Shown piece by piece: positions 17,108-64,000 of a DNA stretch of 64,000 bases. Under the pieces are notes generated by a model. That model did not search any database. It had not been told where the DNA came from and saw only the letters and a list, made by a program, of their open reading frames with translations. Source of the stretch: Hyaloperonospora brassicae (taxonomy: Eukaryota; Oomycota; Peronosporomycetes; Peronosporales; Peronosporaceae); NCBI GenBank assembly GCA_947650285.1, contig CANTFL010000448.1, forward strand, positions 29,465 to 93,464. The letters are read 5' to 3'. The position numbers were made by a program, and so were the translations under genes. How positions within the stretch are numbered: position 1 is the first letter of the stretch; each line of letters starts with the position of its first letter.

Positions 17108-18026
17108 ATGACCAGCGTGGTGGTGGATGCGCGGAAAGCGGCTCCACAAGAATCGCCGCGCGACGCATGGACGACGACGGTAGCATACCTGACCTTTATC
17201 GTCGAAAGTACCGTCGTGATCGACGCCGAGTTGGTTCCTCCTGGATTGAATGGGTTATTGAAATATTACATCGACGAGAAGGTGGTTTCGTTACAATTCT
17301 TCGAGGAAGCATGTGTAGCTGGAATTGCTTGTTACGAAACATGGTTGGCTCAGACCAAGAAAGTGACTTAATCGCTGTATAATTCGAATTCGTCCTTCAA
17401 GCCCATCTTACATAATCTAATTAGCAAGGTCACATGGGCATAGCTAACACCACTTACCCTATAAGCGACGACTGCCCCGCCGACCTCCGACTTCGTGGAA
17501 GGAGCCAACAGTCGCCACGGCATACGGGCAACCTGCAAGCCATTAATATCAATCCAGAATTCTACAACGAGAAGGACATTAAGACTTTGCGGGCGCCCTT
17601 CTACAGCCGGCGGTGATCAACAGCAGGGGCCGACTTCTTGGAGGCACGCAGAAAGGATGATGCATAATCAACGGCCTAGCCGACGGGAGTATTGTGTGCC
17701 CGTGTTTGCCCGAATTATTGAATTGCGTGCTGAATTATAAGACATGAGTCCGTCTGTACATGACAATTCAAGCTCAAGGGGAAGGTGAACTTGTCTTGCA
17801 CTCGCGTAGCGGACTCACCATCTGTCTCTATCGCAAAAATACGAGTGCAAGCAAGGAGGACATTTTGCTGGAAGCGGAACGCCTGCGGGTGAAATGGGAT
17901 GAGCTGCGGCGGCTGTTTAATGTAGCCAATACGACAAGCCACAACTCGGTGGGACGCAGTATCCATTTTTACTTTTTGGATCGGGCGACGGCACGTAAAT
18001 TTAAAGACGTAGCAATTCCACTTTAA
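17108..18026 (+). pseudogene. L1 ORF1-like protein remnant
   Basis: Three open pieces, 17108-17371, 17495-17740 and 17760-18026. The last contains a compact block, LTICLYRKNTSASKEDILLE...LLFNVANTT...SIHFYFLDRATARKFKDVA, laid out like the RNA-binding RRM-like fold of L1 ORF1 proteins. The family link rests on position and layout as well as sequence, so it is a moderate call. Confidence 0.5.
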
Positions 18027-39783: not shown

Positions 39784-40932
39784 CTAAAACTCAACACCAT
39801 AATGTCTGCTTGGCGTTAAACCGTTCTTCCCGTCTACATGCGGTTGCTGCTCCAACATCTCCAAAAGACCACGAATTGCGTCCCGATCACCGTTGCTGAA
39901 CACTTTTTTCGCGCTCGCAACTTCCTGTATAGATTTAGTGGCTACGTATTGCAAGGTGTATGCTTTTAAGGCGCGAAACGAAGACGAGTCCGCCGGCAAT
40001 TCAATGACCTCGTAGCCGGGTTTCCAAGCAGCCAACATGGCTTTTCTAATCTTGGGCCTACGACCACGCATTCCCTCCATCTCGTTTTCCGACAATGTAA
40101 TGAGGCGCGATAATTCAAGGGGAGTGATCCCTTCACGAATCAATTCATCAAAACGGAGTTTTTCCATTGTTTGCCCCAGTGACTTCAGGTACACATTCTC
40201 CTTCATCGCTTGAAAGAAACCTCCATACAGCCACACGGCATCGGTCTCATGAGCTTCATTCAAATAATTGAGCGTGCTTTCGACCGAGAATTTATCGCCA
40301 CCCTTTATCTTTCTGTATAGCTCAGTGAATTCGAGCCACAGAGTTAGTCCGCCTTGCCAAGAGTCCACTATCTCAAACACGTCTTCAGGCTCCATCATCT
40401 TCTCCAGCCACAATCGCTGCAAACTCTCGTGTGCAGTTTCGCTGCCACTCCCTAGAAGCCTTTGTTGTAATACGTCAGCGCGACGTTGCATTCCGTCGCG
40501 ATCACGAAGCCAATGAAAAAACCTGATCGTGTTTTCCTCTCCAAATGATGTCCGCATAAAATTTATAGTCTCGATGTCTCCGTCAGAGCCTCGTCTCTCA
40601 CTCATGCAACCTCTTGCAAGCCACTTCTCAAATTCCTCAGTCGACGCATGTGCTGTCAAGTGGATGTTGTTTGTCGCTGGTGGGCGTACAAATGACGTAA
40701 ACTTCTCTGCCACTCGCCGCATCGATTGAAGAAACGTTTCATTCGCCCTCTCCTCGTCGTCCTGATCGTGCTTATGCTCGTCCTCAGCTGCAGCGTAGTG
40801 CTTTGACACTTTTCCGTCAGGAAATGCGGTCGTGTTCAGACGCGAACTGTTGTCCAGGCCGAGGTGGGCACCACCGGGCAACACGCCGCCCGCATAAGCG
40901 ATGAGCAGGAAGACAAAGCCGTGCATTCGCAT
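39784..40932 (-). CDS. Secreted WY-type effector-like protein with EER but no RXLR
   Basis: An intact 382-residue frame. Residues 1-22 form a signal peptide (MRMHGFVFLLIAYAGGVLPGG). No R-x-L-R is found in the next 40 residues; the region is KVSKHYAAAEDEHKHDQDDEER, giving a DDEER motif at residues 58-62. The rest is helical, with Trp/Tyr-bearing repeats such as EKWLARG, FFHWLRDRDGM, LWLEKMMEPEDVFEI and LWLEFTELYRKI, of the kind that build WY-domain bundles. Secreted EER/WY proteins lacking RXLR are known in downy mildews. They are thought to enter host cells and alter immunity; the target here is unknown. No intron. Its start is supported by the signal peptide and an initiator 26 bp upstream. 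It lies beside housekeeping genes, with repeat-rich DNA upstream. A non-effector secreted helical protein remains possible. Confidence 0.8.
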   Translation of the reverse strand: MRMHGFVFLLIAYAGGVLPGGAHLGLDNSSRLNTTAFPDGKVSKHYAAAEDEHKHDQDDEERANETFLQSMRRVAEKFTSFVRPPATNNIHLTAHASTEEFEKWLARGCMSERRGSDGDIETINFMRTSFGEENTIRFFHWLRDRDGMQRRADVLQQRLLGSGSETAHESLQRLWLEKMMEPEDVFEIVDSWQGGLTLWLEFTELYRKIKGGDKFSVESTLNYLNEAHETDAVWLYGGFFQAMKENVYLKSLGQTMEKLRFDELIREGITPLELSRLITLSENEMEGMRGRRPKIRKAMLAAWKPGYEVIELPADSSSFRALKAYTLQYVATKSIQEVASAKKVFSNGDRDAIRGLLEMLEQQPHVDGKNGLTPSRHYGVEF

Positions 40933-43783: not shown

Positions 43784-43788
43784 AAACA
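43784..43788. other. Target-site duplication of element A, left copy (AAACA)
   Basis: AAACA directly precedes the 5' LTR and recurs at 51763-51767 directly after the 3' LTR, as expected for Ty3/gypsy integration. Confidence 0.85.
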
Positions 43789-44176
43789 TGTAACGGGGCA
43801 GCCCGTTACATGATATTGTCACTTAAGGAAAGTGACAATAAAGAATATAAGATGGATATTCTTTAAACAATATCACCAAAGTGGTGATATTGAAGGGTCG
43901 ACCAAAGGGTCTGTTCATTGGTTGATATCGTGATGATATCAACCCACCAATCGCCGCAAGACGCGCGCAATGAGTGGTGACGAGACGTCACCATACATGC
44001 AGTTATATTAGTATAATTGAATTAAGTCAAACGAAGAGACAGTAGTTTAAAGACTTAATTTATTAATATAACAGTTCTACTTTTACCCTACCTACGCTTC
44101 CTCGCTCGCCACGTGTACGTCCGTCGGGGCACCCAAATCCCTTGCGTTAAGTTACGCAAGGGTGTGCCCCGTTACA
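43789..44176 (+). repeat. Element A 5' LTR (388 bp)
   Basis: Starts TGTAACGGGG and ends CCCCGTTACA, a 10-bp terminal inverted repeat. Internal stems include TGTAACGGG/CCCGTTACA (43789-43810), CAATATCACCA/TGGTGATATTG, GGTTGATATC/GATATCAACC and, at the 3' end, CCCTTGCGT/ACGCAAGGG enclosed by GGGGCAC/GTGCCCC. Confidence 0.95.
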
Positions 44177-44178
44177 CC

Positions 44179-44196
44179 TGGTAGCACTTTGTAGTC
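44179..44196 (+). other. Putative primer-binding site
   Basis: Two bases after the 5' LTR the sequence reads TGGTAGCACTTTGTAGTC. The TGG start is as expected for pairing with a tRNA 3' CCA end. I cannot name the tRNA. Confidence 0.5.
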
Positions 44197-44220
44197 CTTC
44201 CAAGGACCACATCATCCAAC

Positions 44221-45375
44221 ATGAACATGTTGGATGAAGAAGACACCTTTCACGCCACGCGTGAAGGGTTTACCCATTTGAGTGACATCGAATGGGGTGC
44301 GGTAGAACGAATGAGTTCTACCGTAGGCGAACTCGTCGTCAGCACCATGTTGGAGTCTCTAGACAGAGACCAACAACATGCTGCTATCGCCAAGTTCATT
44401 CACAATGAGCTTGCTCTCGAGAGGGAGAAAGTAGCCTTGCTTCACCAGCAAGGCTCTCAACAGGCCGAGCAGTTGAGAGAACTCGGTGCTCAACAGACGG
44501 AGCTGTTGAGACAGCAGCAATTCCATGCTGCTGTGGGCGGGACGGCGCATGCGCGTCGTCCCGAAGTGATGAAAGTCGACATCTCCAAGTACAGTGGAGT
44601 CCCGGAGGACTCCCTGTTACTGTGGTTTGTCGAACTCGACAGAGCCCTAAGGGCTCGTCGCGTCGAAGATGAGCAAGTGAAACTCACATTTGCTCAGACC
44701 CACTTGGCAGGGCGTGCCAAAACTTGGTCCCTGGGACTCGAGAGTAGCGACCCAAATGTGTTTAGGTCGCTAGATGACTTCAAGTCCCGGCTCAGACAAA
44801 CGTTTGAGCCGCCACGTGCTGAGTTCAGGGCTCGTTCAGAGCTCCTGAAACTCAAGCAGGGTAAGCGTGATGTGCACGCTTACGCTCAACATATACGACT
44901 CCTTGCGAGTAGTATAACTGCAAACCCAGTTCATGAACACACGTTGATTACGGTGTTCATGCAAGGGCTCGCAGAAGGGCCCGTCAGGAGCCACCTGTTC
45001 CGCCTTGAGCTGAATACGCTTGAAGAAGCGATATCAGCCGCGGAACAGGAAGACTTTAGCATGAGACAGGCTCATGCTAGCTCAAACTCTTACCGTCCAC
45101 CGAGACGACAAGAGATCGGAGGTCCAGAACCAATGGACCTCTGTTATGTTGAGAGCGAGAGACCTCGCTCTACAAGCAACAAGCGATTGCAGAGGTGCAA
45201 TCGCTGTCAGAAGTTAGGTCACTACGCATACGAGTGTAGTGCTCCGCGCCCAGTACCAAACAGTACTGAGCGAAATGGACGACCATTCGCCAGAAAGGGC
45301 AATGGGCGTGGGTCCAGCGCTGTTGCGAAGCCGCAACAGCGAGACGGGCCATCAAAAAATGGTCGGGGTCAGTAG
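44221..45375 (+). CDS. gag: Element A Gag polyprotein
   Basis: A 384-residue frame that packages the element RNA into particles. It opens with MNMLDEEDTFHATREGFTHLSD, followed by a glutamine- and leucine-rich coiled-coil-like stretch (QQGSQQAEQLRELGAQQTEL). The retrotransposon Gag core follows, including DSLLLWFVELDRAL, LTFAQTHLAGRAKTW, LKQGKRDVHAYAQHIRLLA and LITVFMQGLAEGPVRSHLF. A C-x2-C-x4-H-x4-C zinc knuckle (CNRCQKLGHYAYEC) lies near residues 327-340. The start ATG at 44221 follows the primer-binding region by about 25 bp. The frame ends with TAG at 45373-45375, downstream of a likely -1 frameshift signal into pol. Confidence 0.95.
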   Translation: MNMLDEEDTFHATREGFTHLSDIEWGAVERMSSTVGELVVSTMLESLDRDQQHAAIAKFIHNELALEREKVALLHQQGSQQAEQLRELGAQQTELLRQQQFHAAVGGTAHARRPEVMKVDISKYSGVPEDSLLLWFVELDRALRARRVEDEQVKLTFAQTHLAGRAKTWSLGLESSDPNVFRSLDDFKSRLRQTFEPPRAEFRARSELLKLKQGKRDVHAYAQHIRLLASSITANPVHEHTLITVFMQGLAEGPVRSHLFRLELNTLEEAISAAEQEDFSMRQAHASSNSYRPPRRQEIGGPEPMDLCYVESERPRSTSNKRLQRCNRCQKLGHYAYECSAPRPVPNSTERNGRPFARKGNGRGSSAVAKPQQRDGPSKNGRGQ

Positions 45376-45393
45376 GGGCGGAGCGCCCTACTG
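45354..45393 (+). promoter_or_regulatory. Probable -1 ribosomal frameshift signal between gag and pol
   Basis: The gag frame reads TCA AAA AAT at 45352-45360, placing the heptamer A_AAA_AAT (45354-45360) in the exact register required for -1 slippage. After a 9-nt spacer, CAGTAGGG (45370-45377) pairs with CCCTACTG (45386-45393) around an 8-nt loop. The gag stop lies inside the first arm. The pol frame is the -1 frame and is open from before the heptamer through to 48542. Confidence 0.75.
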
Positions 45394-45425
45394 ATCCAGC
45401 AACCTCAAGAGAATTTGCAAACCTC

Positions 45426-48400
45426 TTGACGAAAGTTGATCCAGATACACAATCATTGTGTGTCTCTGCACCTGGTGATGACGTTTCGCTCATCACCTTG
45501 AAGTTGGAAGCGACAAATGACTTGTCGCTTCGTGCCCTAGTAGACTGTGGGGCGTCGAACAACTTTGTTCGTCGCCAGTCACTAGAGGGTCGTAGGCTCA
45601 AGTTCGTTGAGCGCGACATTCCCCTCACAAGGATGACGGTGCGCCTTGCAACAGGCGCATCGATAACCGTTGAGAAACGTGTAGTAGGAATCCACTACAC
45701 TTTAGAGGGCGAGCAGTACGATGATGATTTCATCGTACTAGATCTGGATGACAAATTTGATGTCATCCTGGGATTACCTTGGCTCAGAAAATACGAGCCA
45801 AGGGTGAGCTGGCAGCATCGATCCGTGAAGATGCCTGCTGCTTGTTCATCAGATGGCCATCTGATGAACATCTTGGAGCGTCCACAAGCGTGTGGATGTT
45901 CTGCGAGTGAGTGCGATGGCCTCACTTGCGGTACGGTCGTTAGCACGATTGCACAAGGTCACAGTGTAGTTGATCACTACACTGTGGAGCAAGCTCCCGG
46001 CGGCTGTACAGAAGTACAGGCTGCGCCGAAGGTCCACCACTCGAATAAGTCGAGTGGACCGGGACATGGATGCATGCCTAGCGGGCAGCATCTTAGAAGA
46101 AAGAAATCTGTTGCCCCCAAGGGGCAACATGAAAATCCTAGGTCGACTGGAGAGTCGACCGTAGAGGATCGGTTCCTGACTGTGGTTGCACAGCCACAGT
46201 CGGAAGACGTCGAGGGAATAAGTCCCCACGTACTTGAGGAAGGAGTTCCTCAAGAGTTGCTTGCTGAGGGATCAGGCCCTCAGCAACCTGTGGAAGCAAG
46301 ATCCCAGGAAGAAATCGAGACGTTGAACGTCTTGGTTAATGACGGATCAAGCGTAGGCGCTTATACGCTTGATCTGATTGTGCCTCCGAAGTTGACTTCG
46401 GAGATAACTCAGTTGCCAACGCTAGAACCGAAACGGTTCTTGCGTGATCTGCGTAGTGGCAAAGTCAAGCAGATCTGCGTACTCGTCACAGAGGACGAGT
46501 ATGTGACCGATATTCGGTCGGCAACAGTATTTGCTGAGAACGAACGGGTTCTCAGCAGCTCATCGATGGACGAAAGTGTCCTCGATGTGAAGACTCGGAT
46601 TGAGCGATACGCGTCCCAATCCTGGGAGTCACTTCAGGCAAATCCTTTGTATATGGATTTGATCGAATTCAGGGATGTGTTCCCTGAATCCGTACCTTGC
46701 GAGTTGCCTAAGGACAAAGGCACTCGACACGAGATCGAGCTCAAACCGGGCTCGAAGTACTGTGTCATGAAGCAGTGGCCACTGCCTCGTGAACAAGTAC
46801 TAGCGATCGACAAGTTCTTTGCCGATCGCTTAGCAGCGGGCCATGTGAGGGAATCAACATCCCCTCACAGCTCTCCGACCTTCTGTGTGCGAAAGGCCAC
46901 AGGAGGGTGGCGGATAGTGCACGCATTCAACAAGTTGAATGCTGCAACGGTACCGGCTCAGACGCCGATACCGAGGAAGGACGTAATCATAGATGGTATG
47001 TCAAAGAGTACCATCTTTTCGTCCATGGATCTGATGGATGGATTCTATCAGATCCTGATGCGTGAACGGGACGTCCCGTTCACAGCAGTGAGTAACCCCA
47101 GCGGGATGCTGTGGGAGTGGCTAGTGATGCCACAGGGGCTGAGTAATGCCCCTGCAACATTTAACATATGTGTAACAAATCTGTTGAGACCGGTGCGAGA
47201 CTTCGCACCGAGTTACTTCGACGATGTGTCCGTCCATAGCCGGGCTATGGACGGGAAGACGGACGTTGAAGTTCACAGAACTCACGTTCGTCAGGTTCTT
47301 CAACTTATGCGCAAGCATAAGTTGTACGCTAACCTCAAGAAGTGTATATTCGCGGCTAGCGAAATACCACTTCTTGGGTGCATCGTGGGGAAACACGGCG
47401 TACGCCCTGATCCCGAAAAGATCAAGGCGATCACCGACTGGCCAATGCCAGTCGATGTCAAGGGACTTCGAAAGTTCCTTGGTCTTGCGGCGTACTTGCA
47501 CAAGTACTCGCGCAACTACGCCGAGATGACGGTACATCTTTCTTGCTTGCTCAAGAAAAATGTCAAGTGGTCATGGAACGCTGAGTGCCAGCGTTCCTTT
47601 AAAGGTATCAAGCAAAGCTTGATGCAATCGCCGATCTTGGCGATTGCAGATCAGGACAGACCATTTCATGTGGTCTGTGACGCCAGCGATTTCGCAATCG
47701 GCTGTGCGTTAATGCAGTTCGATGCAGATGGCGCGGAGCGCGTCATCTGTTATCAATCGCGTCAGCTGCAAGCAGCTGAGCGTAATTACCCAGTGCATGA
47801 CAAGGAACTCCTTGCCATGAAATACGCACTGGCTAAATTTCGCGTCTATCTCTTGGGAGATAGACCGTTTGTTGTCTACACGGACCATGCGTCATTACGC
47901 ACGGCCGTAAACAGCCCACACCTCTCGCAAAGAATGGCGAGGTGGCTGTCTTTCTTCGCGGAGTATAACTTCTCCGTGGAGTATAAAACGGGACGACTCA
48001 ATGTCGTCGCGGATGCTCTTTCGCGCCGGCCCGATTTCGAGCCGGACGCGCAATCCAACAGTGAGGACAAGCCCACTGTTGCGACACTGTCAGTCAGTGT
48101 CCCGTCGTCAAGTTTACTTGACGACGTACGAAAGGCATACGCGGAAGATAAGGATCTTCTGCGATTGATGGATCATCTGGTGAATCCATCCAGTAAATCC
48201 ATGAGGGATTTACCGGCTTTGTACCGATCCTCGTCGGATCGGTATAGTACACGCAACGGATTGCTGTACTATACAGCTGTTGCCGACGACACGCCTCGTG
48301 TCGTCGTACCCGCTCATCATGATTTGCGATTGCGCATCATGTATGAGTGTCACGATGCCCCAACAAGCGGCCATCGTGATAGAGAAAAGACTTACCTCAC

Positions 48401-48545
48401 GGTAAGTCGTGACTTTTACTGGCCACGCCAGTATCAGTTTGTTCGCAAGTACATCCGTGCTTGCGAAGTATGTCAACGGGTGAAGCCTAGTCCTTCATCC
48501 CGTGCGCCATTGCATCCTCTGCCTGTTCCGACAGAGTGCTGGTAG
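45426..48545 (+). CDS. pol: Element A Pol: protease, reverse transcriptase, RNase H, integrase N-terminus
   Basis: About 1,040 residues, with no ATG at the left end, consistent with entry by frameshifting. In order: an aspartic protease with ALVDCGASNNFV (D-C-G-A box) and VILGLPWL; a long linker; RT with SMDLMDGFYQI, MPQGLSNAPATFN and the catalytic YFDD (near 47,213-47,224); RNase H with VCDASDFAIGCAL, HDKELLAMKYAL and YTDHASL; then the integrase zinc-binding domain (HHDLRLRIMYECHD, then CEVCQRVKPS). The frame ends at TAG 48543-48545, directly after PTECW. The integrase core continues in the same frame beyond it, so the stop looks like a point mutation, or less likely a readthrough codon. The coding sequence is laced with inverted repeats. 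Confidence 0.93.
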   Translation: MTKVDPDTQSLCVSAPGDDVSLITLKLEATNDLSLRALVDCGASNNFVRRQSLEGRRLKFVERDIPLTRMTVRLATGASITVEKRVVGIHYTLEGEQYDDDFIVLDLDDKFDVILGLPWLRKYEPRVSWQHRSVKMPAACSSDGHLMNILERPQACGCSASECDGLTCGTVVSTIAQGHSVVDHYTVEQAPGGCTEVQAAPKVHHSNKSSGPGHGCMPSGQHLRRKKSVAPKGQHENPRSTGESTVEDRFLTVVAQPQSEDVEGISPHVLEEGVPQELLAEGSGPQQPVEARSQEEIETLNVLVNDGSSVGAYTLDLIVPPKLTSEITQLPTLEPKRFLRDLRSGKVKQICVLVTEDEYVTDIRSATVFAENERVLSSSSMDESVLDVKTRIERYASQSWESLQANPLYMDLIEFRDVFPESVPCELPKDKGTRHEIELKPGSKYCVMKQWPLPREQVLAIDKFFADRLAAGHVRESTSPHSSPTFCVRKATGGWRIVHAFNKLNAATVPAQTPIPRKDVIIDGMSKSTIFSSMDLMDGFYQILMRERDVPFTAVSNPSGMLWEWLVMPQGLSNAPATFNICVTNLLRPVRDFAPSYFDDVSVHSRAMDGKTDVEVHRTHVRQVLQLMRKHKLYANLKKCIFAASEIPLLGCIVGKHGVRPDPEKIKAITDWPMPVDVKGLRKFLGLAAYLHKYSRNYAEMTVHLSCLLKKNVKWSWNAECQRSFKGIKQSLMQSPILAIADQDRPFHVVCDASDFAIGCALMQFDADGAERVICYQSRQLQAAERNYPVHDKELLAMKYALAKFRVYLLGDRPFVVYTDHASLRTAVNSPHLSQRMARWLSFFAEYNFSVEYKTGRLNVVADALSRRPDFEPDAQSNSEDKPTVATLSVSVPSSSLLDDVRKAYAEDKDLLRLMDHLVNPSSKSMRDLPALYRSSSDRYSTRNGLLYYTAVADDTPRVVVPAHHDLRLRIMYECHDAPTSGHRDREKTYLTVSRDFYWPRQYQFVRKYIRACEVCQRVKPSPSSRAPLHPLPVPTECW
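45843..45870. repeat. 28-bp perfect palindrome in the protease-RT linker
   Basis: TGTTCATCAGATGG followed at once by its reverse complement, with no loop. It encodes the CSSDGHLMNI stretch of Pol. Confidence 0.95.
47062..47083. repeat. 22-bp perfect palindrome in the RT domain
   Basis: GTGAACGGGAC followed at once by GTCCCGTTCAC, inside the RT codons for RERDVPFTAV. Confidence 0.95.
47230..47254. repeat. 11-bp-arm hairpin directly after the RT catalytic box
   Basis: CCGTCCATAGC, loop CGG, GCTATGGACGG, just after the YFDD codons. Element B keeps a shortened stem (CCATAG...CTATG) at the homologous place. Confidence 0.95.
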
Positions 48546-49164
48546 TCCGTTACAATGGACTTCGTCTTCGGGTTTCCCGAAGACGCTCACAAGAATAATG
48601 GTATTCTTGTGTTTGTGGACCGATTCAGCAAGATGGTCCATCTTGCTGCTGTCCCTGAGTCAATCAAGGCTCAAGGTTGTGCTCGTGTCTTTCTAGACAC
48701 GGTCTTTAGACTCCACGGGTTACCCCGTGAACTCGTATCCGACCGTGACCCTCGGTTCACGGCGGAATTTTGGCAAACCGTGTTCCGTACTCTCGGAACA
48801 CGATTGAAGATGTCCACTTCTGACCATCCAGAAACAGATGGTCAGACGGAACGTGCGAACCGTGTCCTCGAAGAGACTCTTCGAAGATACGTCCACTCGT
48901 TTCCGAGTTGGAGCGAATTCCTACCCATGGTGGAATTCGCCATCAATAATTCGGTGCATGCTTCAACACAGCACACACCGTTTTACGTGAATGGCCTACG
49001 CCATCCACGTGTGCCCACCCTTCTAGAGTGTGACTCTTGGATAAGGGGGGGAGGGACTCGCTCGAGCAAAAACCGTTTTGGCTCTTGCTCATCACGTGTC
49101 GACGCAAACGTCGTCACGTATGATGCCGATGTCGATCAAGTCGACATCGATGAAGAAGATCATC

Positions 49165-49192
49165 TCAATAATAGCGGCGACGCTATTATTGA
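49165..49192. repeat. 12-bp-arm hairpin in the acidic integrase linker
   Basis: TCAATAATAGCG, loop GCGA, CGCTATTATTGA. Confidence 0.95.
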
Positions 49193-49600
49193 TTCGGATG
49201 ATGATGACGATGCTGGTATATTCAGCATCGCCAACGATTATGCCAGCGAGGAAGAAGACAACCTCGCTGAAGAAGAGAGCAATCTCTTAGCAGTGCGCAC
49301 GAAGCGCACTGCTAGACAAAACAAAGAGTCAGCAGAGAACTTCCTGCTGACTCGAGAAGCGGTAGTCCGTTTCGTTCAGGACTCCATCGCAAATGCGGTG
49401 GACCGTCAGAAATGGAACGCAGACAAGAATGGAAGAGCAAATGTTCTTTCATTTAAGGTTAATGACCTAGTACTACTGTCAACGGTAAACCTACCTGGAC
49501 ATGCAGTCACTAGTGTCGGCAGTAGTAAACTACTGCCGAAATACATTGGGCCATTTCGAGTGTTGCATCGCAAGGGCAATGCATACACACTCGAATTGCC

Positions 49601-49626
49601 ACGTAGGATGCGCACGCATCCTACGT
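49601..49626. repeat. 12-bp-arm hairpin near the integrase C-terminus
   Basis: ACGTAGGATGCG, loop CA, CGCATCCTACGT. Confidence 0.95.
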
Positions 49627-49687
49627 TTTACGTGGGGAGGCTTAGGTCGTACTGTCAGTACGAGCCTTCTTCTTCCGATGAAGATAG

Positions 49688-50269
49688 CCCCCACGTTCAA
49701 GAACATCCATCAAGTTCTTGCGTTCGCGCTCCAGACGATCCGTCTGGTCGCGCAGATATGATACCTCGGTATTCAACCGAGTTATCTCTCCGCGAGCTGT
49801 CGCCAGCTCGCCGAAAAGGAGCGGACATCCCGCTCGACCTGAAGCTGCGCCGTGGCATAATCGGCGCGATCCCTCGCCCGATCAGCCTCGTGACCCTTGC
49901 GGTTCTTCCGCACGGTGTCGGTCAAAGCGTAGCGTCGGTCGCGCTCGTGCTTCAAGTCATCGCGCAATTCATCGATTGCGCGATCCATCTCGTAAGGGTC
50001 GAGATGGTGGGCCTGGGGTTCTGGAGGAGGTCTTTCCTCCTCCACCACATCCTTTGGTGGATGCTCACGGTGATCAACGCTTTCTAGTGGAGCGTATCTT
50101 GAATCACCGTGACGATTCAGGATCAAGGACGAGCTACCTCGTCCAGTGGCGGGGGTATCCACCCTCTTGGAACAGCTGGGAGCCCCGCTCTCAGCTGTTA
50201 ATGGATGTTGAAGGTCTCGTCCACCAGTATGACGAGACCCATCCGATGAGTCCTGTGGCCCATCGGTAA
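49688..50269 (+). CDS. Element A chromodomain segment in a shifted frame
   Basis: Open from just after a TAG at 49685-49687 to TAA at 50267-50269, in a frame different from the integrase. The last ~70 residues form a chromodomain: QRFLVERILNHRDDSG, YLVQWRGYPPSWNSWEPRSQL and VHQYDETHP, with the aromatic residues that bind methylated histone tails (Y, W, W). Preceded by proline-rich EEVFPPPPHPLVDAHGD. In related elements this domain is fused to the integrase C-terminus, so a frameshift or an extra recoding event is implied between 49688 and 50087. The region also overlaps the antisense ORF. Confidence 0.8.
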   Translation, partial: PPRSRTSIKFLRSRSRRSVWSRRYDTSVFNRVISPRAVASSPKRSGHPARPEAAPWHNRRDPSPDQPRDPCGSSARCRSKRSVGRARASSHRAIHRLRDPSRKGRDGGPGVLEEVFPPPPHPLVDAHGDQRFLVERILNHRDDSGSRTSYLVQWRGYPPSWNSWEPRSQLLMDVEGLVHQYDETHPMSPVAHR

Positions 50270-51245
50270 ACACGCGCCCTAGGCGCTTGTAGACGGATTG
50301 CAAGTTTGCAATCGCGTCACGCATCTCGTCCGAGAGATGTGCCCTTCCCCAGGGCAAATTTAGGGAGTACACATCCCTATGTGCACGCTGCGAGTTGTCA
50401 ACACAACTCGCACAAGGGTCTCCCCATGTGAGGCAAGGAATGCCTGCCTCACTCGATAAACAATGCAACCGGTACCTAGCACCGGTTGGCGTTCGCCGTT
50501 CGAACCTGAGGCGTGTTGCCTCAAGTTTCTTGAGCCACCCTTCTCGTCCAAAATTCTTTACGTTTTGGACGAACGCGTTCCACGCAGCCAAAAGCGATGT
50601 TTTGTCACGCTTTTGGTTGCTATTGTACCATCGATGTCTAAGGAAGACATCGAGATAAAAGTCTTCTTCAGCGCGAAAGCTCTTCGCGCTGGGATCCAAG
50701 CCGTGAAGCTCAGTCGCATCGAATAAGGGTATTCGATGGTGTTGGCCTGTCTCGTGAGACAGGCTATTGATGAGCCGTTCAGGCAAACGCCACGGCTTCA
50801 ACTCATCACGCTTCACAGTGGTACCCTTGTCGGTACCACGGCTCCCAGATTGACGACGGCTCGCGCCATCGTCATCACGCTCGTGCGAAGACGCACGAGC
50901 CGGCGGTGGTGAAGAATAGAACTCACCACCCTGATCATCGTCATCACTGCCGAACAGACTGTGATGCGAATCACGAGTCTGTTCGTTCGGCAGTGGCCTT
51001 GGCGAATACTGAGGCGTCGCCGGTGAGCGAGACGCCTCTGGAGCATTGCCCGAGTCAGACACGTCTGACTCGCCAGAGTAGATGACCTCCACATCGGGGT
51101 CATCGTGCGCACGCGGCGTGATACCGCGTGCACCTGCAGCACCTGTTGCTGCAGGCGAAGAAGGGGCGGCAGACGACGAAGCGTCTGCCGCAGAGGCTTG
51201 CACAGCACCAGGCTGTGTGGGTCTTGAGTCACCTCGCATAGACAT
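49782..51245 (-). CDS. Antisense ORF in element A, 487 residues, function unknown
   Basis: Runs opposite to gag-pol, from ATG at 51245 (130 bp from the 3' LTR) to a stop at 49782. The first ~975 bp have no long ORF on the sense strand, so openness there is not a shadow effect. The N-terminal ~150 residues are Ala/Ser/Pro-rich and acidic (DDPDVEVIYSGESDVSDSG, GSDDDDQGGEF). A central domain of about 150 residues looks folded and helical (DFYLDVFLRHRWYNSNQKR, LLAAWNAFVQNVKNFGREGW), with a few Cys (IPCLTWGDPCASC). The C-terminus is charged and coiled-coil-like (IDELRDDLKHERDRRYALTD). I do not recognise the family. Transcription would have to start in or near the 3' LTR. Its 3' part overlaps the chromodomain and integrase frames. 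Confidence 0.7.
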   Translation of the reverse strand: MSMRGDSRPTQPGAVQASAADASSSAAPSSPAATGAAGARGITPRAHDDPDVEVIYSGESDVSDSGNAPEASRSPATPQYSPRPLPNEQTRDSHHSLFGSDDDDQGGEFYSSPPPARASSHERDDDGASRRQSGSRGTDKGTTVKRDELKPWRLPERLINSLSHETGQHHRIPLFDATELHGLDPSAKSFRAEEDFYLDVFLRHRWYNSNQKRDKTSLLAAWNAFVQNVKNFGREGWLKKLEATRLRFERRTPTGARYRLHCLSSEAGIPCLTWGDPCASCVDNSQRAHRDVYSLNLPWGRAHLSDEMRDAIANLQSVYKRLGRVFTDGPQDSSDGSRHTGGRDLQHPLTAESGAPSCSKRVDTPATGRGSSSLILNRHGDSRYAPLESVDHREHPPKDVVEEERPPPEPQAHHLDPYEMDRAIDELRDDLKHERDRRYALTDTVRKNRKGHEADRARDRADYATAQLQVERDVRSFSASWRQLAER

Positions 51246-51363
51246 GTTAGCTATGCGAGGTCAAGCGGAAAGTGAGTGGAACGGACCAAACAAGTGCTCC
51301 CTGTCCCAATGGTGGCCAACGGGTGGCCTCCATATTTCGATAGTCACACGGTGACTATCAGTT

Positions 51364-51374
51364 AAGGGGGGTGA
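51364..51374 (+). other. Polypurine tract of element A
   Basis: AAGGGGGGTGA lies immediately before the 3' LTR, where plus-strand DNA synthesis is primed. Confidence 0.8.
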
Positions 51375-51762
51375 TGTAACGGGGCATCCCGTTACATGAT
51401 ATTGTCACTTAAGGAAAGTGACAATAAAGAATATAAGATGGATATTCTTTAAACAATATCACCAAAGTGGTGATATTGAAGGGTCGACCAAAGGGTCTGT
51501 TCATTGGTTGATATCGTGATGATATCAACCCACCAATCGCCGCAAGACGCGCGCAATGAGTGGTGACGAGACGTCACCATACATGCAGTTATATTAGTAT
51601 AATTGAATTAAGTCAAACGAAGAGACAGTAGTTTAAAGACTTAATTTATTAATATAACAGTTCTACTTTTACCCTACCTACGCTTCCTCGCTCGCCACGT
51701 GTACGTCCGTCGGGGCACCCAAATCCCTTGCGTTAAGTTACGCAAGGGTGTGCCCCGTTACA
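51375..51762 (+). repeat. Element A 3' LTR (388 bp)
   Basis: Same length as 43789-44176 and, by eye, identical except for one base in the loop of the first hairpin. Followed by the AAACA target duplication (51763-51767). Confidence 0.95.
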
Positions 51763-52188
51763 AAACATCCATCTGTAAAAATATTATAGCTGCTTCTTCG
51801 CCTGATCCGCTCAAGGTTCTTTGTCGCCCCTGAATCTTACGATCAACGCGAGGCAACGGGCTCACCCCTTTCCTCTCACGATTTCGTATTATTGCGCAAG
51901 AAGCACTCTCCTATCATGTACAGCTACAGCCGATATGTCAGTCGCGTATTCGTAGTGTGGAAGTAGGTAGACTTGCTCGCAGTCAGCATGTACCGACATC
52001 TTATGGAATGCTCGCATGATCTTGCAGTCGTAGCGTGATACAAATAACCTAGTGAGCACTGAGAACAACGTCGAATGCAATTACATCAGCTTGTTAATGG
52101 AAAGGTAAAACTCAAACTGGCATACTGATGAGGTTGAACACTTGGGTTGTACGTTGCGCTGTTACGTGGCGCGAGGGTTGAGTATTGG
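51763..52188. other. Spacer between element A and a solo LTR
   Basis: About 0.4 kb with no recognised feature beyond the target duplication at its left edge. Confidence 0.5.
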
Positions 52189-52626
52189 TGTCACGGGGCA
52201 GCCCGTTACATGAAATTGTCATTAAGGATAAAATGGCAAAAAAGAATATCACGTTGAATATTCGTTTAGCAATACCATTAAATACAGCGATATAGTTGAG
52301 ATGACCGAAGGGTCTACTCATTGCTTGATATCGTGATGATATAACCCACCAATCGCTGCCAGACGAGCGCAATGAGTGTTGAGTAGACATCATCATACGT
52401 TCAGTTAGATTAGCATAATTAAGTCAGGACAAACAGAGACAACAAGAGTTATAGGACTTAATTGTATAAAATCCCAGTTTTACTTTTACCACGACTAGAG
52501 TCTTTACCTTAGTCTTTACCTCCCTGTGTAGTGTTTACACCTAGCAGGGCACTGGAATTCACTGTTGTCAGTGATAGTTAACTCCGTACTGGTAGTCCAG
52601 TACGTAGTCGCCGGTGCCCCGTTACA
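52189..52626 (+). repeat. Solo LTR, element A-related subfamily (438 bp)
   Basis: Begins TGTCACGGGGCAGCCCGTTA and ends GTGCCCCGTTACA. The left and middle parts match the element A LTR, including CCAATCGCTGCCAGACG. The last ~85 bp are different and match the fragment at 27335-27421. Flanks ATTGG (52184-52188) and ATCGG (52627-52631) look like a target duplication with one change. No internal region is present, which fits LTR-LTR recombination. Confidence 0.85.
52547..52619. repeat. Three-way-junction-like inverted repeat at the solo LTR end
   Basis: An outer stem GGGCACTGG/CCGGTGCCC (one mismatch) encloses TTCACTG-TTGT-CAGTGAT and CGTACTGG-TAGT-CCAGTACG. The fragment at 27343-27414 has the same layout with a different but still pairing second arm. 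Confidence 0.8.
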
Positions 52627-55560: not shown

Positions 55561-55649
55561 ACCCGAATAGAGGCTCAGGTTGATACCCTAGTACAAATCT
55601 AGAAACCGATGGCAAGGCTTAACGCCGCGGCAAAAGCGCCTCCAAGTTG

Positions 55650-56700
55650 ACGTGGGACGGATCCCGATACGGCTTAAGTAAGATAACGTAGAACACCGGG
55701 TGTGGGAGCAGTTATTGCGGAAGATTGAGCGTATACGCAAGTCCCTTCTTCGCGACGACCGTGAATGTATTTATGAAGAGCGTAAGAAACTTTGTCTCGA
55801 AGATAGCGGACACTACGTTTGTAGGTAGGTTTTTAGCATCAAGCAGCACTTTATCTCCCATCTAATAACTTTCATTACAACCTATACCTTTAATAACTGC
55901 TTGTTCCTTTTGTCTGTATTGGCTATCAGCCAGTGCGTTAAGCAAATGTCGTGATACATTCAATCGCGTGCGAGAAACGCTTTCACCTGTTTGTGAACAG
56001 TAGCAGGGCTGATATCATCAAGCCGATCGGCAACTCCTCCCTCAACAAGCCCTGAACTACGTAGTGGTAGCGTTAACAAAACGCGAGGGTGTGTAAGACC
56101 ATTCACGAAGAACGGTTTGTAGCCGGTGGAGGCATGCACGGCGTTATTCAACGCAAACTCAACGACAGGGAGCATCGCACTCCAACGCTTAGACGTTTCA
56201 GCGCAAACACTGCGCAAGATGTCACCAATGATGCAATTCACACGCTCGGTTTGACCATCAGTCTGCGGATGATCCGCGGTGGACATGTTCAATCGTGTGC
56301 CAAGCACCTTGAAGGTGGACTTCCAAAACTTCCCAGTGAAGCGAGGATCTTTATCAGAGTTAATTGCCAACGGCAAGCCGTGTTGTCGAAACACGCGATC
56401 GATAAACAGCGTAGCCGTACCTTCACCTTCGATAGAGTTCGGCACCACCGCTAAAATGAGCCATTTTGATCAAACGTTCAACAAAAACTATAATACCCAT
56501 ATTGTCATGCATATCTTTCGGTTCACCGAACAAGAAGTCCATGCTGATGGAGTCTTAACATCTCTTGGGTACCGGCAAACTAGCTAGCGCCGCCACCGCA
56601 TGAGCTGAAACCTTTACTCTTTGAAATGTTTTGCAAGTAAGAGCATATGTGATGATTCATTCGTAGAGTTTGGTCCACCAACATCGTTGTCTAACTCATC
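55650..56700 (-). pseudogene. Element B integrase remnant
   Basis: The 56448-55960 frame keeps FRQHGLPLAINSDKDPRFTG (catalytic D), STADHPQTDGQTERVN (catalytic E) and a VEFALNNAVHASTGYKPFFV block. The zinc-binding part before it is broken. Past 55960 the frame continues as scattered pieces toward the C-terminus. Confidence 0.85.
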
Positions 56701-56750
56701 CATAAGTCTTCTCAAGACCGAGATGACCACTCAACGCGGTATTATGTGCC

Positions 56751-57419
56751 TCACTGAGAATTCGATACTTCAACACCTTTATCATGAGAGACAACGATGC
56801 GAGGAATATCCTCCACATCCGTGCTATAGCACAACAGACCTTGATCGCTGGAATATCGATGTAACCTCGCACGTAATCGTGCCGACAATTTTACGTCTAA
56901 GTCCTTGAGCTCGTCGATTCCAAGATCACGTAGCAGAGCTATACAGTGTCCATCCTTGGCATAAGCCGAACGGATGAGGTCAGTGAACGACGACGACAGA
57001 GTCGTAACATGAGCAAGCTCATATTTAGGCCTCCGTGACAACGCATCAGCCAAATAATTATGCTTGCCCGGCTTACACTTCACCTCAAAGTTGAACTCGT
57101 CAAAGAAGGGAATCCAACGAGTCATTTTATGAGAAAGATGAGGCGACTGAATCGCAGTGCGTGGTGACACATTATTGGTATAAATCACAAACGGCTTAGA
57201 GCCAAGAAGATATATTCTGAATTTGACGAGAGCATACTTCATTTCAAGTAGCTCGTTGTCATGAGCAGGATCGTTTTTCAGAGGCTTCAGCTGCCGGGAC
57301 TCAAACGCAATGACGCGTTCTCGTCCATCAACATATGTTTGTAACAGAGCGTTGTCTATGGCAAAGTCATCTGCGTCACAGACGACACTAAAAGATCGAT
57401 CAGGATCAGGTAAAGCCAT
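56751..57419 (-). pseudogene. Element B RNase H remnant
   Basis: Reads SVVCDADDFAIDNALLQ, HDNELLEMKYALVKFRIYLLG and ALSRRPKYEL, an RNase H domain of the element A type. It is out of frame with the RT pieces. Confidence 0.85.
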
Positions 57420-57421
57420 GA

Positions 57422-58214
57422 TTAGCGCATGAAGGAGACTCTCCTATACTGCTTGAAAAGCATCATGCTCGGTGCAGTCCAGAACCATTCTACATCCTTT
57501 TCAAGGAGATTGGATAATGGCCGAGCCATATCTGCGTAATTCGCGCTATACTTGTGTAAGTTATTGGAAAGGCCAAGCCACTTACGCAAGTCCTTTTGGT
57601 TCTTTGGAACCGGCCAATCAACTACGGCTTTTACCTTAGCGGGACCCGCTCTAAGGCCTCGCTTACCAATAAAGAACCCTTTAAATTGGAATCTCTTGCG
57701 CACCAAACATGCACTTAGAGACGTTGGCATACAACTTGTTCTTGCGCATGCACTCGAGTACTGCTCGTAAATGGTAGATGTGATTATACACATTCGACCG
57801 ACCGTTCATAGCACGACTATGGACAAAGATATCATCAAAGTATGTCTGTGCATAACCTCTTTGAGGTCTGAACAAATGTGTCACAAGACGGTTGAATGTA
57901 TCCGGGGCATTCGATAACCCTTGCGGCATAACAAGCCACTCCCAGAGCATACCGCTGGGATTACTGACCGCTGTCAGCGGAATATCGCTTTCTCGCGTGA
58001 GAGGTTGGTAATAACCATCGACTAAGTCTAGCGCACTATACATTGTACATCCCACCATATTGTTATGAAGAACATCTTTCCGAGGGATTGGTGTCTGAGC
58101 CGGGATGGTGGCTGCATTAAGCTTATTGTAAGCATGAACAATGCGCCACTTTCCATTGGGCTTTTTGACACAGAAGGTCGGTGTGGAATGGGGAGATTTG
58201 CTCTCAAGTACCAT
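57422..58214 (-). pseudogene. Element B reverse transcriptase remnant
   Basis: Two overlapping frames. 58214-57681 holds SALDLVDGYYQ, MPQGLSNAPDTFN and the catalytic YFDD followed by IFVHSRAMNG. 57793-57422 continues with KGFFIGKRGLRAGPAKVKAVVDWPVP and the LRKWLGLSNNLHKYS block. One frameshift separates them. Confidence 0.88.
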
Positions 58215-58424
58215 TCCTGCCGCGTGCTTTGCACGAAAGAAGTCGTCAATGACGTCACACTGTTTCTTCGGTAAAGGTCACTGCCGTGTTACTCAGTATT
58301 TAGTTCCAGGAACCAAGTTAATTTCATGACGTTCACCTCTATCGGGAGGCAAAACGGACGGTGGGTTGTGACACACCACGTCCTGAAATGCCTTTACCAA
58401 AGGATAGAACGGATCAAGAGGATC

Positions 58425-59204
58425 CTAAAGGATCGACGATTTACTACGGGAATCCAATGCCGCCTTTGTGTACTCAAGGACAGACTCGTCTAATAACGAG
58501 GATGAGCTCAACTCAATATTTGGCCGAATGACCACTAACTCGGATAATTCTCCGTCCTGCAAGGCTTGGCTTAATTCGCCGTCAGACATTTCGTCTAGTT
58601 CAAAGAGAGTATCCAAGGATGGAAGAGTCTCAAGACTAGTATTGCCATCAATCTGGCCAGTCAACTCATTGACAAGTGTATATAGTGTATTATTACTAAT
58701 ATCACTTCGTGACTTCTTAGACGTTGGGTGCTGAACAGTTGCCACCCGATGCCGGGATTGTTTCCTTACAAAAACCGTACGCCTCCTAGAGGCCGGGAAA
58801 ATAGGGTCCCCGTGATTACTATTTATAATAGCACGCTCTGTACGAGAGCTCATGTCTTGAACGACATCTGGTGAAGTGTTACGTAACTCGAAAACTTCAA
58901 CCAGTGAGTTTACACGTACCACTTCACGTTCTGCATTTGGGTCTAGCCCTGAACACTCTGGCTTCTCGTCAACAATGTCATTACCGACATTCAGTGAGGT
59001 GCCACCTCGGCCGCCCTCACTCGGTGGAATTACACGTGCCACTTCACTAACAGCATTCGGGCCTAGCCCTGAACACTCTGGCTTCTCGCCATCAATGTCA
59101 TTACCGACATTCAGTGAGGTGCCACCTCGGCCGCCCTCACTCGGTGGGATTATACGTGCCACTCCACTCACATCAGAGGAATTACAATCTTGATGTCTCT
59201 GCAT
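58425..59204 (-). pseudogene. Element B protease-RT linker, with a tandem repeat
   Basis: A 259-residue open frame rich in Ser, Asp and Glu, equivalent to the long linker of element A. It contains two near-identical 40-residue units, each with IPPSEGGRGGTSLNVGND and EKPECSGL. Confidence 0.75.
58913..59165. repeat. Tandem repeat, 120-bp period, about two copies
   Basis: CTAGCCCTGAACACTCTGG starts at 58943 and again at 59063. The two units differ at only a few positions and the period is a multiple of three. Confidence 0.9.
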
Positions 59205-60029
59205 AGGCCAACCATGCCTGCAGCATGCAGTGACTCATTTTCACAACGAGTATTACTCCACGGAGTATAACTCCCTTCACATACGGTGAAAGAGCTCCGC
59301 TCAATATGGATGTCATTGACATTGAAGTTAATTAACTCTGACATACCTATGTCCATCACATTGACATCTTCCGTCAATGACTCGCGCCAATAGCGCTTTT
59401 GTTGCCTGGCAAAGGTGGGTTCATGAATTTCCAAAGCTTCGCCAGAAACATTGCGCGTGGCGCCTAAGGTCTTAGACCGTCTATCAATACATCGCTCGTG
59501 GCGTTCAAGCCAAGCCATATCCAGGATGATATCGTAATCAGAATCCAAATCGAGGACAAGACAGCGTTCAATGCTGTCAAAGTCCAAAAGAATTCACACC
59601 TAAGTTCAACGGAACTTTGGGCACCGTGACGCGACTACCAGTCGCTAGACGAACGGTGATTGAATCACCCTCATGCGCTTTGAGCGCTTCAGCGTATCGC
59701 TGACTTCCCTCCAGGAAACGACGTCGATCGTAATTGCATGATGCTCCGGAGTCGATTAAGATCGACCAATGATTCTCAAAGCCTTTAATCTTCGCCTCGG
59801 CGACTAACAAGCCAGGCTCGTATCCACGCTCTGTGCTGGTGGGCACATAGCTCGGTGGGGCTAAGCCCTGTTTCGCTCTACCTCGTAGAGAAGTGATAGA
59901 AATCAGTTCTACCCCAGTAGGGCGCCCCGCGCCTACTGGGTGTCGACGTTTCCCCGTGCCATACCAGGTTTCTAGTTGTGGCTGGGGTTTCGACCCATAG
60001 GAGTTATTTGTTGCTAGCGCAAAGGACAA
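59168..60029 (-). pseudogene. Element B protease remnant
   Basis: 60029-59577 encodes SILIDSGASCNYDRRRFL, a D-S-G-A aspartic protease box, and VRLATGSRVTVPKV. 59587-59168 continues with LVLDLDSDYDIILDMAWLERH. A small frame change separates them. Confidence 0.85.
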
Positions 60030-61816: not shown

Positions 61817-62272
61817 TGTAACGAGGTAAACCTTCTGCATTGCATAATCCCGAACTCTGCCAAGGTAAATCTATTCTTCATGAATGATATTAACAATTTG
61901 GATCGTGCGAGTCAATATAAAGTGGAAAAAGTACCGTTGATGAAATTTTTGGTTTAGCTACTAATTTCAGTAACAGATTACGTTACGATACAAACCTAAA
62001 AACAAGAAAGCACTGCTAGACGCGCGCCATAAGTGGCGATTGCGATTCTATAATGTGGATTTGTACTTGAAAATACTGTCAGTAAGATAAGAAAGGTTTA
62101 TTACAGAGGCATAGCTTAAATAATACAAAGACGGATCTCCTTTTTATAAATCTTGCTCTTGTTGTATTCATCCTCTGAACGCATGAAATACGTGCAATTT
62201 GAAAGCATATACCCTTGTATCACTTCGGTACAAGGGCTTGTCACATTATGGTAAGAAGTGAGCCCCATTACA
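61817..62272 (+). repeat. Diverged LTR of the element A family
   Basis: Starts TGTAACGAGGTAAACC, holds the CACTGCTAGACGCGCGCC core near 62010-62030 and ends GAGCCCCATTACA. Confidence 0.7.
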
Positions 62273-63330
62273 AGCATAAGCACTTTGTGGTCCGTTAAAG
62301 GACCACGATATCTCGTTTAATAAAACATACTGAGTGTTGGAAAAGGAAGCGTTCACGCCACACGTGAAGGCTTGTTACATTTGAGCGTTTTAAGATAAAT
62401 ATACATTTATTTTTTTATATGTGACATCGCCACCCGTGGCATGTTACTGTATCTTGCCCGAGACCAACAACTAGCCATGATTAACATGATCACCCAGATT
62501 TAGATAGTTTGAGAAAGGGATAAAGTAGCCCTGCTGCGCTAGCAAGGCAAATAACAAGCATATCGTTAGGAGATTTCAACTAAAACCGACACATCTGTTG
62601 AAACAGCAGCGATTTATTGCTGCTGTGGGCGGGTCAACGCACACGCTTCGCTTTTCATCTAACCGATGGATAAATTTTGTACAGAAGAGTCGAGGTAGAC
62701 TCTTATGGAGGTGGTTTGTCGAGTTGCACAATGTTATAAAGGCTCGTCGCATCATTGACGACACGATGCAAGTTTAGTTCGTCCAGTCCAGATATGGCTA
62801 GAGGATCCAAGGCTTGGAGACCGTTGGGATCGAGATTCTTGACCGAATGCATTCGGGTGTTAAAAAAAATTTGAGAGCCGATTTAGACAGAAAATTGGGC
62901 CGTTACACGCCGACGATAGGGCTCTTGATAAGGTTTTAAAACTCAGGTCGATAAAGTAGATGTGCATTCTTACGCGCAGCACATTTGATACCTCTCTTGA
63001 TTCGGAAGAATACTTCCTTAGATAATAAGCACACATAAATTACTAAGTTTATCCAGGGATTTTCGGATGTTATTGTCAATTCCCACCTATACCGCCTTTA
63101 CGTGCGATAAATAGATCAAGCGAGTTCAGTGACGGACGAGGAAGGTTGAGGTGTAGACAGGGACATATATAGCTCTTTCATCTACCTATCTGAGGGACGA
63201 CAGGAAAGTAGAGGTTTATAATAACGGACGTTTCTTACGTGAACTGAGAGCGTACCCGCTCTCCAGGATATAATCGTCGTCAAAACAAAAGGCACTGCGC
63301 CTCTGAGTATACTGCCCCAAGACCAATATT
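62273..63330 (+). pseudogene. gag remnant of the element A family
   Basis: Directly downstream of the LTR remnant. AGCACTTTGTGGTCC and GCGTTCACGCCACACGTGAAG align with the leader and start of element A gag, GCTGCTGTGGGCGGG with its middle, and the stretch around 62935-62990 with the LKLKQGKRDVHAYAQHI codons. Many stops; not functional. Homology is lost by about 63,330. Confidence 0.75.
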
Positions 63331-64000
63331 ACTTACACAAGTGGGTAGCGACCGTCCGTCAGCTAAGTGAGATCCAACGCTTTAAACAAGTGCTGCTTAC
63401 AATTCCCTACTTATATTGCTGCATCTCCTAGGCAACGCATATTCGTTTATATCGCAAAGGAAGACCACAAATTTTACGCTATGAGTGTGTCGTATATGCT
63501 GTTACTGTCAATTTGAGCCCTTTTCTGACGGCTCTAAAAACTAGTACACTAATGAGTCTCCCCGAGGAACTGTTGCTCACTACACTGGTGTCCATACAGA
63601 AAAATATATATATATATATATATATGAGACTTCATAAGATTATTAAGATATTACCTGACCAGCTGCTATTATATCTACATGCAGAACAACCTTCACCCGT
63701 TTATAACATTGTATCTCAGAATCAGTATGATCGCTTGCTCTATCGTTCTCGAGATCGTTGCGATTCTTTTACTTATTATTGGTCAGGTTCGGCGTTTAAT
63801 CCCTTATTATTTCGATCCTTACGCTGTTCGAATATTATCCTCTCGACTTTTCAATGAAACATATCCGGCAATTGAGCAGGGAAAGGTCTTCTTGTCTCAA
63901 CACGTCCGTAAAACATGGCACGGTATTTAAGTCCGATCATCGGATCAATGTATCTCTTTTTTGAACGTCTGTCGACGAAAAGAACCAGTACGAATCATGA
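63331..64000. other. Right-edge sequence, unassigned
   Basis: No recognised gene. Contains a short (AT)n run at about 63605-63626. The open frame 63679-63930 on the plus strand has no identifiable feature. Confidence 0.45.

Follow-up and report, generated by a model that had tools for sequence, protein, structure and literature searches.

Short perfect hairpins throughout a Ty3/gypsy retrotransposon of Hyaloperonospora brassicae, possibly maintained by selection on the folding of both strands

Introduction

What fills a retrotransposon from one end to the other with short perfect hairpins, and what keeps them there? The question is raised by element A, which lies at positions 43789-51762 of a 64,000-nucleotide stretch of Hyaloperonospora brassicae DNA (contig CANTFL010000448.1 of assembly GCA_947650285.1, positions 29,465 to 93,464 of the forward strand); this whole stretch is referred to as the window, and all positions are those of the window. 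Element A is a Ty3/gypsy long terminal repeat (LTR) retrotransposon, with LTRs, gag, the gene order protease, reverse transcriptase (RT), RNase H and integrase, and a short target duplication. A first-pass annotation of the sequence had reported more than 60 perfect inverted repeats in it, with about two expected by chance, and had put forward a structured genomic RNA that helps packaging or template switching, protection from silencing or a source of small RNAs, and a palindrome-making mutational process as possible causes. In element A and its sister subfamily, we describe short perfect hairpins that number 56 to 109 per 8 kb. As a tentative explanation, which we prefer to its rivals, they may be maintained by selection on the folding of both strands, which would hinder sense-antisense pairing and blunt silencing by small RNAs.

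Results

Number and distribution of hairpins in element A

Hairpins were defined as perfect inverted repeats with arms of 8 bp or more and loops of 0-15 nt. Element A contained 114 of them when it was scanned alone, so that the earlier figure was true but low; the scan of the window gave 113, as it omits one repeat that starts one base before the LTR. Of these 113 repeats, 109 do not overlap, and about seven touch each LTR and are thus counted twice. Dinucleotide shuffles of the element (n = 200) yielded a mean of 1.6 repeats (standard deviation 1.2, maximum 6), in agreement with the chance expectation given earlier. Codon-preserving shuffles (200 for each gene) gave means of 0.7 for gag (maximum 4), 1.2 for pol (maximum 4) and 0.55 for integrase at 48555-49727 (maximum 3), compared with real counts of 13, 42 and 16, respectively. 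In pol, 33 of the 161 hairpin centres permitted by the protein were realised, compared with 0 of 73 and 0 of 121 in two host open reading frames (ORFs), which supports the proposal that codon choice is bent towards hairpins. The remaining six 8-kb blocks of the window contained 2, 2, 4, 4, 2 and 10 repeats, with the block of 10 including an (AT)n run that was counted seven times. The first-pass annotation had named two outcomes that would count against it, codon-preserving shuffles that match the real counts and an equal density in host genes or unrelated elements. Both comparisons were run: the shuffles fell far below, and such a density was absent from host sequence and from a Ty3/gypsy family that is more distant.

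The repeats extend from LTR to LTR, as had been stated. Their density per kb was 15.5 in the LTRs, 11.3 in gag, 13.1 in pol, 13.6 in integrase and 19.5 in the section of an antisense ORF that reaches past the sense genes, the last being the most hairpin-dense stretch; the 44 nt preceding gag contained none. Arms measured 8-14 bp overall, with a separate hump at 8-11, loop sizes peaked at 4-6 with none at 16-21, and the total size of a hairpin peaked at 23-24 nt. Two loop-less palindromes noted earlier were both present, with arms of 14 and 11 (Table 1). The spacing of hairpins had a mean of 80 and a standard deviation of 55 and gave no hint of regular periodicity.

Related elements with and without hairpins

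A 1-kb piece of element A used in a genome search gave 1,873 candidate places; 40 of these were scored, and all showed 99-100% identity (window copy included). The family is young and abundant. Thirty copies, among them that in the window, were fetched from the 40 listed and contained 47-56 repeats per 4 kb.

Two relatives that run from LTR to LTR, L063 and L064, were located via their LTRs and represent a sister subfamily, A2, with 82% and 80% DNA identity to A, respectively. L063 contains 91 repeats and L064 contains 56, of which 67 and 40, respectively, lie at the places occupied in A, and 72 of 102 stems of A retain all or all but one of their pairs in L063. The union of the three elements comprises 138 hairpin sites: 39 are common to all three; element A shares a further 28 with L063 only and 1 with L064 only, has 42 to itself and lacks the remaining 28, which occur in L063, L064 or both. 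Given that segments not common to A and A2 bear hairpins of their own, the property has been renewed and not merely inherited. Two additional copies, L065 and L066, were A2-like (93% and 89% identity to L063) and not outgroups, and gains could not be polarised. The LTRs of L064 are 99.3% alike; its interior differs by 6.5% from L063, with broken frames and fewer hairpins, and this element may be an old defective copy that moved recently.

Family B, a more distant Ty3/gypsy family of the same genome examined at 30 loci, contained only 1-3 repeats per 4.7 kb. Its identity to A in pol was 44% for a remnant in the window and 51-57% for three or four better copies. Scans that tolerate mismatches revealed a very large excess solely in A, L063 and L064 among the sequences scanned, and a modest excess in, for example, the family B copy L032, window positions 16001-20000 and a gag remnant at 62180-63600. 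Perfect repeats were not in excess in L062, an old relative with 67% DNA identity, yet paired changes at stems numbered 18 in this element compared with 9.5 expected; L062 is possibly a decayed lineage that once bore hairpins.

Searches of viral-contig and genome-contig collections yielded no relatives. Relatives of the RT, where named, are mostly from oomycetes. Protein relatives were found in Peronospora effusa (87%) and P. matthiolae (77%), and with proteins of at least 400 amino acids we determined whether such relatives permit hairpins at changed residues. The result was weakly positive for P. effusa protein P0001 (13 of 22, compared with 29 of 99 controls) and negative for P. matthiolae protein P0005 (5 of 16, compared with 23 of 80 controls). 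Realised sites were slightly above controls in all four identity classes when proteins were pooled, which we do not count as proof.

Other traces of related elements are present in the window. The gag remnant at 62180-63600 includes a hairpin (62603-62626) that resembles the one at 44511-44534 of A, and LTR-like pieces at 16064-16360 and 52186-52490 share 75-78% identity with the LTR of A and are related to numerous other LTR copies elsewhere in the genome.

Changes at stem positions and the possible copying of arms

Paired changes at the stems of A numbered 33 in L063 and 35 in L064, compared with 4.0 and 6.5, respectively, expected from the divergence of each element on the assumption of independent sites and with no tree. 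At the same positions, copies of family B showed 13 compared with 13.8 expected and 16 compared with 15.2 expected. Three of 32 fixed paired changes were adjacent; counts of fixed differences, like those of one-arm clustering given below, omit pairs at which L063 and L064 disagree, and the clustering counts also omit stems that lie mostly in gaps. Identity between A and L063 at third codon positions was higher in stems than outside them (0.91 and 0.77 in pol, 0.79 and 0.55 in gag, and 0.89 and 0.76 in integrase), with little difference at first and second positions in pol and integrase.

The 30 copies of A provided a second view. Private variants, each present in a single copy, showed no depletion in stems (49 at 1,004 stem positions and 142 at 3,002 others). 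Variants common to two or more copies, which we take to have passed through replication, were depleted there, with 4 in stems and 44 elsewhere, and three of the four were located at or beside the loop of the hairpin. At third codon positions, shared variants numbered 2 in stems and 37 outside, compared with 19 and 63 for private variants (Fisher p 0.019). None of the 48 shared variants formed a paired change, and the sole paired change among the copies of A was private to L003, the most diverged copy.

These observations bear on the main rival to selection, a mutational origin in which the growing strand folds back during reverse transcription and copies its own arm (quasipalindrome template switching), so that arms co-evolve without any benefit. 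The mechanism is already known (PMC8794818). It would produce Watson-Crick-perfect arms free of any wobble bias of the sense strand, and both the excess of paired changes and the occasional adjacency of fixed ones are as it predicts. Differences in the stems of A were also clustered on one arm (14 of 23 stems, compared with 9.0 expected), and they affected the left arm in 68 cases and the right in 36, the direction expected from minus-strand self-copying. Among stems with exactly two one-sided differences, 12 of 14 were one-armed (p 0.013), a count restricted post hoc to such stems and with two stems of the 3' LTR omitted. In the stems of L063, however, clustering was absent (6 of 12, compared with 5.25 expected) and the arm bias turned (28 left and 42 right, not significant). 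L064, despite LTRs that are nearly identical, had 71 broken pairs and zero paired changes relative to L063, and family B lacks perfect repeats in the same genome although its RT is related.

The shape of the stems also weighs against copying. Arms are no longer outside than inside gag, pol and integrase (to 49727), with mean lengths of 9.15 and 9.23, respectively. Arm length drops as G+C content rises and stem energies are less variable than the energies of length-matched spacer segments, both in A and in L063, and longer arms come with shorter loops. We read the trade-off between length and G+C content, together with the narrow range of stem energies, as selection for a level of stability. 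Copying should also have generated shared paired changes in addition to the depletion of lone variants: reversion by copying of an arm could by itself remove lone variants, but about as many paired changes would then be expected. The depletion of lone variants without paired changes thus points to selection over arm copying, a result that, with 48 shared variants, is suggestive and not final. The mutational process proposed in the first-pass annotation therefore holds up in part, in that it fits the lack of a sense-strand wobble bias and some of the one-arm clustering, whereas it leaves the depletion without paired changes, the stability trade-off and the equal arm lengths unexplained. We consider it somewhat unlikely as the source of the hairpins.

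Strand dependence of folding

Folding excess over shuffles was 46.9% for the sense strand of A and 46.7% for the antisense strand, compared with -0.3% and 2.7% for host sequence, and all 22 sense fragments of A showed an excess of 30% or more. The sense values for L063 and L064 were 41.3% and 29.7%, respectively, and the strands did not differ in either element. Mismatches within the stems of A comprised 11 A.C and 10 G.T, and pooling of inner, outer and internal mismatches gave 33 of each. Wobble pairs accounted for 5.9% of predicted pairs on either strand of A, compared with 13.3% in host sequence. The loops of A and L063 were A-rich on the sense strand (31-32%, compared with 25% in spacers; p below 0.001).

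A second rival is selection on the minus-strand complementary DNA (cDNA), with hairpins protecting or compacting the first DNA strand or aiding second-strand synthesis. A.C mismatches, which correspond to wobble on the minus strand, exceeded G.T in some A2 comparisons (24 to 11, p 0.04; for L064, 15 to 3, p 0.008), and stems gained by allowing A.C outnumbered those gained by allowing G.U in L063 (95 to 76) and L064 (65 to 50). Such counts overlap between A, L063 and L064 and are not independent. A itself was even in both respects, with 95 stems gained by allowing A.C and 96 by allowing G.U, and the stems of L063 leaned the other way in L064 (G.T 25, A.C 17).

Folding excess in other elements was also examined by strand. 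The family B copies L032, L034, L044 and L055 showed an excess of 11-20% on both strands without perfect repeats, and the family B remnant of the window, at 55600-59800 on the minus strand, showed 9-12%; A may thus be the extreme of a trend. The excess was slightly higher on the minus strand in the four family B copies, the remnant and L062 (six of six; significance not computed), as expected if folding of the cDNA were selected. The same lean was found in the unrelated element L061 (-1.9 to -1.0%) and in one host stretch (2.7 to 4.1%, p 0.26), but not in two host genes. Given this lean in host sequence, the equality of strands in A, L063 and L064, and loops whose A-richness lies on the plus strand, selection on the cDNA appears unlikely.

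The third rival, structure of the sense genomic RNA alone, whether for packaging, for stability or as genome-scale ordered RNA structure (GORS) like that of plus-strand RNA viruses, fits worst among the rivals, though the A-rich loops of the sense strand favour it. The very high folding excess and the conservation of stem sites would be expected, and of 105 windows of 150 nt, 60 had the more stable fold on the sense strand and 43 on the antisense strand. Selection of this kind should tolerate G.U and let it exceed A.C, however, and both the even mismatch counts and the low share of wobble pairs contradict this. A folding excess that is equal on the two strands also weighs against it. With no preference for G.U over A.C, selection for folding of the sense RNA is insufficient by itself, and the packaging structure suggested earlier finds no support as a sole cause. 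We regard this explanation as improbable. Finally, chance, assembly artefact or base composition can be dismissed with near certainty in the face of 114 repeats compared with 1.6, 30 copies at separate places and two further LTR-to-LTR elements with paired changes.

Folding of both strands as the proposed selected trait

We infer that selection, and not repeated copying of arms, is the main keeper of the hairpins. Folding of both strands would be the simplest trait to require Watson-Crick arms in both: the complement of a G.U pair is an A.C mismatch, so that only Watson-Crick pairs fold in the two alike. The sense transcript and its complement would then each fold locally at once. Strands folded at once into short hairpins would pair slowly with each other, and sense and antisense RNAs of A that are already folded may accordingly yield less double-stranded RNA. 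The arms themselves stay short, so that no single hairpin forms a long duplex. Point changes, or template switching in the course of reverse transcription, might give rise to new arms. The benefit would presumably be escape from double-stranded RNA and from small-RNA silencing.

Such a benefit implies that both strands of A are transcribed, which may be the case. The antisense ORF (Table 1) gave no match in Pfam at an E value of 0.01. Its 13 homologues comprise two from P. matthiolae and eleven others sourced from ENA, and its changes relative to L063 and L064 occur mostly at its own third codon positions; the conservation of this ORF makes antisense transcripts of A plausible.

Several points weigh against selection for folding of both strands. 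Differences in the stems of A cluster on one arm, including among stems with exactly two of them, and the depletion test is based on only 48 shared variants. The A-rich loops and the larger number of windows with a more stable sense strand speak for the sense RNA, whereas the excess of A.C in some A2 comparisons favours the minus strand. The arms occupy just a fifth to a third of A, so that any shield would be incomplete. Retrotransposons of Phytophthora infestans produce mainly 24-30-nt small RNAs, and the inverted-repeat loci of that species give the most small RNA per megabase (PMC3804510). Hairpins would thus be a liability, given that inverted-repeat loci are the strongest sources of small RNA. 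More doubtful still is the stronger proposition, that across a clade of retrotransposons the entire sequence, LTRs as well as genes, has been recast as a stability-tuned array of hairpins in both strands, which would keep the sense and antisense RNAs of an element apart and so hide it from RNA silencing.

Organization of element A

Features of element A and individual hairpins are listed in Table 1. In the copy of the window, the pol and integrase ORFs are split by a stop codon, and the chromodomain is in a different frame from the integrase ORF. The chromodomain lies downstream of the integrase core, and A is chromovirus-like by domain content. Elsewhere in the window, a 382-amino acid ORF at 39784-40932 on the minus strand had no relative that could be found beyond the window's own protein.

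Table 1. Positions of element A features and of individual hairpins in the window
Feature	Position	Strand	Remarks
5' LTR	43789..44176	+	388 bp; six non-overlapping perfect inverted repeats; one mismatch with 3' LTR
3' LTR	51375..51762	+	388 bp; direct repeat 43788-44087 / 51374-51673
Flanking direct repeat AAACA	43784-43788 and 51763-51767		
gag ORF	44221..45375	+	384 aa; 13 repeats; Retrotrans_gag 4.4e-16, Ty3_capsid 9e-09
pol ORF (protease, RT, RNase H, integrase zinc domain)	45426..48545	+	RVP_2, RVT_1, RT_RNaseH, Integrase_H2C2; 41 non-overlapping repeats
Integrase ORF (rve core, Tf2-1-like SH3)	48555..50087	+	rve 1.8e-08, SH3_Tf2-1 2.6e-13
Chromodomain ORF	49718..50269	+	Chromo 6e-14
Antisense ORF	49782..51245	-	487 aa; no known domain; conserved; 13 homologues
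LTR hairpin	43975..43993		relative to L063 and L064, two adjacent changes at the two innermost pairs, confined to left arm (also in 3' LTR)
Hairpin	45057..45079		two adjacent paired changes relative to L063 and L064
Hairpin	45152..45171		paired change relative to L063 and L064
Hairpin	45507..45531		paired change relative to L063; extra mismatch in L064
Loop-less perfect palindrome	45843..45870		arm 14; imperfect in L063 and L064
Hairpin	45960..45986		paired change relative to L063 and L064
Loop-less perfect palindrome	47062..47083		arm 11
Hairpin	50631..50653		two adjacent paired changes relative to L063

Discussion

We found no report of an LTR retrotransposon saturated with hairpins in the literature searched, a search that mostly did not reach subscription journals. 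Chronos, a Ty3/gypsy element of oomycetes, resembles A in having a chromodomain near its 3' end; it also has a second RNase H, of plant type (PMC5348765), whereas A showed none beside the RT_RNaseH models (Pfam, E value of 0.01). The terms inverted repeat and palindrom were absent from the available text of that paper. The genomic RNA of yeast Ty3, likewise a Ty3/gypsy element, has been mapped for structure; 6-nt palindromes are discussed for its dimerisation, and its A-rich composition (about 36%) is linked to less stable structures (PMC11381356). The terms inverted repeat and covariation did not occur in the available text of that report.

A closer likeness is offered by the palindromes in the mitochondrial coding sequences of Nematomorpha, where, as in A, many perfect inverted repeats lie inside genes whose proteins are conserved, and for which template switching is discussed as a possible cause (PMC6649704). 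Those repeats number 110 of at least 15 bp over four mitochondrial genomes, with a mean of 43 bp and a maximum of 142 bp. The arms of A, by contrast, measure 8-14 bp within a narrow range of size and stability, and more than 100 hairpins occupy one 8-kb nuclear mobile element, LTRs included. Hairpins generated by template switching in RNA genes share with A perfect stems, paired changes and, for the stems of A, one-arm clusters (PMC8794818). That study concerns RNA genes, whereas A is a whole retroelement with a trade-off between length and stability and a depletion of lone variants. With more than 100 stems per copy and many copies per genome, element A bears on the open question of whether selection maintains perfect stems or template switching generates them. 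The presence of related families with and without hairpins in one genome, moreover, provides a natural comparison for silencing, packaging and reverse transcription.

In its overall folding, A is best compared with GORS of plus-strand RNA viruses, in which the folding excess also extends over the genome, paired sites are less variable, and what matters appears to be folding in general and not any single element (PMC7642675). The excess described there is about 15% for SARS-CoV-2, and 23.4% is the highest recorded in the analyses of vertebrate RNA viruses in that paper. The 47% of A exceeds both values, in an element that is young and abundant and whose protein domains are still encoded, although the comparison is approximate because fragment schemes differ. 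Pairings in GORS are poorly conserved between relatives, whereas most hairpin sites of A are common to its relatives and show paired changes. Furthermore, both strands of A fold equally, whereas GORS takes folding of the sense RNA strand as the selected trait.

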